A stretch of DNA of 64,000 bases from Flagellimonas zhangzhouensis (lineage in GTDB: Bacteria; Bacteroidota; Bacteroidia; Flavobacteriales; Flavobacteriaceae). Of this stretch, positions 38,706 to 39,568 are shown in pieces (positions within the stretch are counted from its first letter, which is position 1; each line of letters starts with the position of its first letter). The stretch is from contig NZ_FNKI01000002.1 of assembly GCF_900102925.1 (NCBI RefSeq), positions 868,001 through 932,000 of the forward strand, in the 5' to 3' direction. The notes under the pieces are model-generated. The model had not been told where the DNA came from and ran no database searches. It was given only the letters and a program-made list of their open reading frames with translations. Position numbers and translations under genes: made by a program.

Positions 38706-39568
38706 TGCTGCTGAGGGAAATCAAACATATTTTCCACAAAGAATTGGGTGAAATCTATCCCAAAGAAGAAATTGACTCTTTCTTTTATAATTGTATTGAA
38801 CATTATTTGAAGTTGGAGCGGTTCATTTTGGCCATCCAACCAGAATATGTGTTGACCAAAGAGGAGGAACAACCACTTTTTGAAGCTTTGTCGCAATTGA
38901 AGTTGCAAAAGCCTTTACAATATATATTAGGAACAGCCCATTTTATGGATTTGGAACTTCAGGTGAATGAAAATGTGCTGATTCCCCGACCTGAAACCGA
39001 AGAATTGGTACAATGGATTTTGGACGATTGTCAGGTCGAGCGCAGTCGAGACCTCAAAGTTCTAGATATTGGCACAGGAAGCGGGTGTATCGCTATTGCA
39101 CTGGCCAAACACCTGCCCAATGCAAAAGTATATGCGTTGGATGTATCTAAAGAAGCGATAAAAGTAGCTGAAGAGAACGCTGAAAATAATGGGGTGGAGG
39201 TCACTTTTATCCAACAAGATATCCTTGAACTTGAGTTTGAACTTGAACTTGAACATAAGTTCGATATCATCGTATCCAACCCACCCTATGTGCGGAAATT
39301 GGAAAAACAAGAAATTCAGAATAACGTTAAGGATTTTGAGCCCCATTTAGCCCTTTTTGTCAAGGATAACAATCCATTAGTTTTTTATGAGGCCATTGCG
39401 CAATTTTCAAAAAATCATTTAGTGGAAAATGGCAAGCTTTATTTTGAAATCAATCAATATTTAGGGGAAGAGACAGCTACTCTTTTGAAAGCCCATAATT
39501 TTTCGGAAATTGAACTGCGCAAGGATATTTTCGGTAACGACAGAATGCTTAAGGCAACGAGAACATGA
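38705..39568 (+). CDS. prmC: Release factor glutamine methyltransferase PrmC
   Basis: Methylates the GGQ glutamine of RF1 and RF2. The 287-residue protein has the N-terminal helical domain, [12 protein letters not shown] (91-102), the SAM loop [10 protein letters not shown] (121-130) and catalytic NPPYV (192-196). Two segments look like dispersed DNA repeats kept in frame: residues about 109-117 (CQVERSRDL) and 173-185 ([13 protein letters not shown]). Neither disrupts a catalytic motif. Overlaps ligA by 4 nt (ATGA). Confidence 0.94.
39030..39054. repeat. Palindromic repeat segment inside prmC
   Basis: GTCAGGTCGAGCGCAGTCGA plus GACCT, an imperfect palindrome resembling the GTCATTTCGA...GAGAAATCT intergenic elements. 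It is read in frame as part of prmC, between the N-terminal domain and the SAM-binding loop. Confidence 0.6.
39224..39262. repeat. GAACTT hexamer tract inside prmC
   Basis: Consecutive CTTGAA/CTTGAG/TTTGAA hexamers encode alternating Leu-Glu/Phe-Glu ([10 protein letters not shown]). The tract matches intergenic copies at 1309 and 35018. Confidence 0.65.

Follow-up and report, generated by a model that had tools for sequence, protein, structure and literature searches.

Two loops of the methyltransferase PrmC in Flagellimonas zhangzhouensis and its relatives seem to be repeatedly rewritten by repetitive DNA

Two loops of PrmC seem to have been rewritten repeatedly by repetitive DNA with the protein left unbroken, and it is highly probable, in our assessment, that both are permissive landing sites for the repetitive DNA of the genome. 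The gene lies in a 64,000-nucleotide stretch from Flagellimonas zhangzhouensis (the window), and an earlier note on this DNA had described two dispersed repeats kept in frame inside it. Loop 1 (residues 109–117, ahead of strand 118–122) would hold a complete TGTCA-tagged palindromic repeat (REP), whose acquisition most likely dates back to an early member of the genus and which is retained here. Loop 2 (residues 171–185, ahead of strand 186–191) would hold a hexamer microsatellite whose length changes in both directions, probably by slippage. Sequence comparison establishes the repeat family and its complementary stem, the variable occupancy of the loops across species and genera, and the same pattern in other genes.

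The host gene, prmC (release factor N5-glutamine methyltransferase), occupies positions 38705–39568 on the forward strand as an open reading frame of 287 amino acids, and its product is an ordinary PrmC. The protein scores 267.2 bits against the NCBIfam equivalog TIGR03534 (cut-off 199.1), carries the Pfam domains MTS and PrmC_N, and has its best solved relatives in 2b3t, 1t43 and 1sg9 (named hemK). The NPPY motif is invariant across 41 aligned PrmC sequences. The AlphaFold model (mean pLDDT 91.3) places segment 1 at the end of helix 96–112 and in the coil ahead of strand 118–122; for segment 2 it predicts a coil, modelled with lower confidence, ahead of strand 186–191. Both segments lie opposite gaps in the alignment with 2b3t, which we take to be the E. 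coli structure; methyltransferases of this kind usually have the loops preceding these strands pointing away from the side that binds SAM and the substrate.

Segment 1 (39029–39054, forward strand) is the in-frame tagged REP and codes for CQVERSRDL. It comprises the tag TGTCA (39029–39033), a stem of GG (39034–39035) and CC (39052–39053) enclosing the 16-base core TCGAGCGCAGTCGAGA (39036–39051, forward strand), and a final T (39054), in keeping with the family formula TGTCA-nn-TCGAGCGCAGTCGAGA-n'n'. In the 3.74 Mb genome, the core has 42 exact copies and 62 with no more than one mismatch, with none for the reversed control. From loci around the core matches we collected 66 distinct copies (up to two mismatches), of which 62 have GTCA two bases 5′ of the core and 58 have complementary dinucleotides flanking it, in 11 different kinds. 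A constant core with outer pairs that are exchangeable yet complementary is the mark of a REP-type tagged hairpin, and both a self-complementary stem and an unpaired TGTC-type tag are present in the family. Copies in plus and minus orientation at short spacing are numerous in the genome, dimers being common. The earlier note rightly described segment 1 as a dispersed palindrome that stays in frame and reads CQVERSRDL, its dispersal across the genome being shown by the copies of the core; its sister copies, however, are not in the window, where the only close copy is that of prmC itself and the next best has four mismatches, so that they must lie elsewhere in the genome. A strong hairpin formed by the prmC element alone is not supported, as its folding energy is no better than that of shuffled sequences (z −0.21 and 0.01).

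Chance resemblance or a compositional artefact is scarcely credible as an account of these segments. Stretches rich in E and L or in R and S do arise easily, PolA has an exact core with no other signs of REP insertion, and a 24-base hexamer search stayed level with its control (both described below), but the core counts far exceed the empty reversed control, which already contradicts such an account for segment 1, the tag and complementary stem are intact in prmC, and the pattern replicates in other genes and genera.

The core occurs in 70 of the 71 genomes of the genus, at 0–118 copies each; G025 and G031, with 0 and 1 copies, offer REP-free comparisons. A long-loop form of the REP is found in L070, L151, L188 and L202 (two in the prmC of relatives, two in the F. 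zhangzhouensis genome), where a GC-rich palindrome of 17 or 21 bases (CCCGCCTGCC..GGGCAGG type) sits at the identical position of the core in all four cases.

The genus compared here is the Muricauda/Allomuricauda group of the Flavobacteriaceae, and the best named PrmC matches belong to Muricauda, Allomuricauda and Flagellimonas. A search of 118 genomes gave a PrmC above the cut-off in 103. The comparison covered 61 named loci from outside the genus and 70 prmC loci within it, the latter from 69 genomes, one of which gave two. The linker that contains segment 1, from PETEELV to the SAM-binding strand, measures 17–50 residues in the 69 measurable loci of the genus; outside, it is 15–20 residues in 55 of 59 measurable loci, with unrelated sequences. 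Loop 2 also varies in length. Both segments therefore differ among relatives as the earlier note expected, and their conservation in distant Flavobacteriia was looked for and not found.

We typed the linker states by reading all 69 linkers, in place of a poor automatic sorting (20 state changes). Eighteen carry a single REP, decayed in some of them, 27 have a REP pair of the DAERSRSVISTPLND type, 19 a tandem-repeat peptide of the QKSEVRSQKSE type, and five nothing recognisable; two of the 27 pair linkers also carry a tandem-repeat peptide. On a prmC tree built from 61 rows of the genus and five others with the linker and segment columns excluded, the four states need 14 changes, the least possible being three. 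Individual comparisons are consistent with such turnover. L038, the sister of the F. zhangzhouensis genome (support 100/100), has a REP pair where the latter has a single REP; the L158 linker reads like a clean 27-base REP insertion within the first REP; and L151 and L057, with flanks 96–97% identical, differ by 21 bases within the REP pair, as a gain or a loss. The pairs of L041, L056 and L178 have the second unit oriented opposite to that of the remaining pairs, so not every pair is inverted. In relatives, the loop-1 REP would thus have met several fates: decay, loss, conversion to a REP pair, a second REP hit, or replacement by a tandem-repeat peptide.

Linkers with a single REP have 18 residues in 16 of 18 cases and are hardly longer than the five repeat-free linkers (17, 17, 17, 19 and 23 residues), so the event was no simple addition of 27 bases: sequence was replaced or later trimmed. 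The pair state tracks REP-rich genomes when relatedness is ignored (Mann–Whitney p 9e-6), but not significantly when it is respected (seven independent pairs, median p 0.5), and REP count as a driver of the pair state was rejected on that ground. The tandem-repeat word AGAARTCAGAARTCAGA has 0–5 matches in each of eight genomes, several inside prmC, and none in the F. zhangzhouensis genome (control 2); being this sparse, it lends no support to a large dispersed family as the source of the tandem-repeat peptides.

The repeats in prmC are, on comparison across genes, part of a wider habit. Eleven of the 66 REP copies are flanked on either side by coding sequence in the same frame. They fall in nine genes of the F. 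zhangzhouensis genome, identified with Pfam and NCBIfam: prmC, polA, metH, argS, mfd (two copies), trpF (two copies), hemW, a GSCFA-family gene and a beta-lactamase-fold hydrolase; this count omits start-proximal copies and short open frames, and some genes are cut by locus ends. A variant REP pair is present in leuS. Copies at the very start of frames (L015, L200) occur in a putative hisC-like frame, where the REP may lie upstream of the true start, and in a methylmalonyl-CoA mutase frame.

Pieces of 150–160 residues of polA, metH, argS, mfd, trpF, hemW, GSCFA and leuS were aligned with those of 12 relatives. For GSCFA, LeuS, MetH, TrpF, Mfd and HemW, filled, differently filled and short versions of one segment are found, and the length changes suggest that the variable segments are loops. 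At a single site in ArgS, the REP has one orientation in the F. zhangzhouensis genome, G005 and G045, and the opposite one in G034, G012, G064, G048 and G063. In leuS (L021 3-1598), the editing domain has a REP pair that is extended or altered by further repeats in G064, G063, G034 and G011, and the open frame ranges over 941–1043 amino acids in 12 genomes. PolA behaves otherwise: it has the exact core, but zero length change and no silent-site conservation (below), so a REP insertion there is doubtful and some in-frame core matches may not be insertions. The search of other coding regions that the earlier note had proposed thus finds the repeat in variable segments of argS, leuS, mfd, trpF, hemW, metH and GSCFA, and its remark that two such repeats in one gene are unusual does not hold in this family, since these seven other genes carry the REP and a Flavobacterium prmC (L128) has palindromes at both loops.

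We then looked beyond the genus, at 60 further genomes of the family (one per genus, 54 measurable) and at 11 of the named outside loci. By reading of the sequences, three of the 54 genera (G123, G145 and G155) have a word of REP type in loop 1 of prmC, and one (G162) has another palindrome in loop 2. The REP in the G123 prmC has the stem CT/AG and a different frame and is therefore an independent arrival, and that genome holds seven core matches including the one in prmC. A related word, CTGAGCGAAGCGAAGA, has seven matches in the G155 genome and none in that of G145, which gives no sign of a dispersed source there. Among the 11 named loci inspected, L128 has palindromes, candidate dispersed repeats, at both loops, and L116, L118 and L111 have one at a single loop. 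HAELVSAS and LPAGQAG are among the names of other, putatively dispersed repeats.

The recurrence of these two loops as repeat sites across many species and several genera might also be expected under adaptation at the protein level, whereby the peptides would be favoured as flexible or charged linkers of PrmC and repeats would be a convenient source of them. We regard this as highly improbable: the peptides are unrelated and come from different frames, ArgS accepts both orientations at one site, some species do without the peptides, and unrelated proteins behave alike.

Segment 2 looks, by its sequence, like a slippage microsatellite. The tract (39225–39254, forward strand) consists of TTGAAC/TTGAGT units in the loop ahead of the NPPY strand, and Tandem Repeats Finder reports 39224–39254 with a period of 6 and 5.2 copies. 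Three TTGARY units occur at five loci genome-wide, prmC and four others, with none for the control; the four others look intergenic, three being without an open frame of 100 residues and one having only a stop-to-stop stretch of 109 residues. Kinship with tracts at 1309 and 35018 had been proposed; the former is among the five loci and the latter is more degenerate. A large hexamer repeat family was rejected, given the five loci of this 18-base pattern and a 24-base search (up to three mismatches) that gave six matches against five for the control, which marks the hexamer as a sparse word. Loop 2 has an odd length in 61 of 66 measurable loci of the genus (7, 9, 11, up to 31 residues), as gain or loss of six-base units, in two-residue steps, would produce; outside the genus, it has eight residues in 44 of 61 loci. 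The prmC tract is thus not an inserted repeat of the REP's sort, as which it had been presented, and the odd lengths point to slippage. A cluster of repeats at 34890–35060 brings together, side by side, a heptamer array of AGTAGAC (7.3 copies), an TGTCATTCTGAACGAG..GAAGAATCT element at 34975–35009 and a degenerate hexamer tract.

On the landing-site reading, which we prefer, transposition or template switching would bring in the REP as a short hairpin unit, and selection would merely tolerate it in loops. The frame would survive for three reasons: five of the six reading frames of the REP consensus are open (the sixth is closed by a TGA in the tag), a 27-base unit equals nine codons, and cells in which the gene is broken disappear.

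A stronger role for the DNA itself was weighed against mere tolerance. Intragenic REPs may be functional DNA or RNA sites, such as a hairpin that a trans-acting factor binds or processes, or may be homogenised with other copies, so that the coding would be dual-purpose; we hold this to be possible, though tolerance is the better supported of the two. The comparison of codons documents silent-site conservation in several REP-carrying genes. For codons of four- and six-fold amino acids that encode the same residue, we compared the element with its flanks and with windows of equal length. Silent-site identity was 154/161 against 496/1221 in the flanks for GSCFA (0/112 windows as high), 76/93 against 425/946 for HemW (4/113), 68/82 against 538/946 for TrpF (6/104), 61/72 against 536/1235 for ArgS (1/123) and 70/70 against 711/1236 for LeuS (9/136). 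PolA was without excess (42/88 against 581/1243, 42/123 windows as high). The MetH numbers (24/53 against 707/1216) were left unused, as its alignment mixes single and paired elements, and those of Mfd (5/5 against 60/79) come from the only two genomes with the element.

For prmC, five genomes that were picked after their linkers had been seen give a third-position identity of 0.83 for the element, the median of 140 windows being 0.50. Only a small excess at third positions (0.58 against 0.47) is left when all 16 linkers of 18 residues are taken, and overall identity is then equal (0.71 against 0.72). The GG/CC stem is common to nine of the 18 single REPs of prmC, which argues against fresh separate insertions. 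The match to the core rises with the REP count of the genome in PrmC (p 0.12) and in all seven other genes tested, a trend that ignores relatedness and is nominally significant in two, MetH and LeuS. Decayed copies exist, for example L149, L152 and L063, and the rows were selected by protein resemblance, which favours intact copies, so we treat the silent-site signal as a strong hint rather than proof. Silent codons in several intragenic REPs are thus far better conserved than their host genes, hinting at a force that acts on the DNA; this signal could come from constraint on the hairpin, from renewed copying of other REPs, or from both. It is conceivable, if on balance doubtful, that the 16-base core in coding DNA, silent positions included, is kept or copied anew by a factor acting in REP-rich genomes, with the host protein merely tolerating it. 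If so, loops such as the two of PrmC would be repeatedly overwritten by a genome-wide population of repeats.

In this common group of marine bacteria, conserved proteins thus have segments that repeat DNA measurably reshapes. Natural replicates are abundant, with different repeats at the same place, both orientations and nested hits, and they make it testable how REPs spread without a dedicated transposase and whether a DNA function is preserved by selection inside genes. When peptides such as VERSRD, SSAVE, RAQSR, STALD or HSERSEES turn up in a flavobacterial protein, they can be repeats that are translated, rather than conserved motifs.

Coding hexanucleotide microsatellites are known, with a six-base unit and lengths that change in two-residue steps. 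Segment 2 resembles them in its period of 6 and its unit-step length variation, and differs from the usual case in adjoining a REP site in prmC and in having its word at four other places. The opposite-orientation, dispersed REP pairs recall REPIN/RAYT systems (PMC3116915, PMC2817692). Mobilisation by a RAYT was nevertheless rejected, because the Y1 transposase (PF01797) has no match in the F. zhangzhouensis genome and is matched in only 13 of 71 genomes of the genus, against 70 of 71 for the core.

Rickettsia palindromic elements (RPE) were reportedly the subject of Ogata in 2000. Two reviews describe them as dispersed palindromes of about 100–150 bp that are read in frame inside conserved protein genes (PMC2229807, PMC10969869). 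The in-frame palindromes in prmC, metH, argS, mfd, trpF, hemW and GSCFA are alike in this respect, but their unit is about 26 bp and they belong to the Flavobacteriaceae. The comparison with Rickettsia that the earlier note had drawn is apt, as RPE-4 and RPE-6 are counted among tagged REPs by Di Nocera 2013 (PMC3733652).

The same paper covers REPs tagged with GTAG or with CGTC, many of the second kind having TGTC instead. They occur in several phyla, Bacteroidetes included, with apparently no transposase dedicated to them, and some lie inside genes, DNA polymerase I and tRNA synthetases among them; two Xanthomonas recB genes have different REPs at about one site (PMC3733652). Our elements share with these CGTC/TGTC REPs a short palindrome, an unpaired GTC-type tag at one end, occurrence as singles or dimers, the apparent lack of a dedicated transposase, and some intragenic copies. 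CGTC-1 to CGTC-4 are given a stem of 8–9 bp, a loop of 4–5 bases and mostly a CCA tail (PMC3733652), whereas by our own pairing the present element has an interrupted stem, a two-base GA bulge and a loop of about six bases, with no constant CCA. The available part of a 2025 REP survey has two Flavobacterium genomes in its table and contains neither 'intragenic' nor 'Muricauda' (PMC12306157). Among the matches listed in our literature searches, there was no report of REPs inside Flavobacteriaceae genes, although this leaves their absence from the literature unproven. The known part of what we describe resembles Rickettsia-type coding palindromes and CGTC/TGTC-tagged REPs; unlike the REPs of Di Nocera, several repeat classes occupy the same segments, and the scale of this recurrence over the genus and family, the mixture of repeat classes and the silent-site signal look new.
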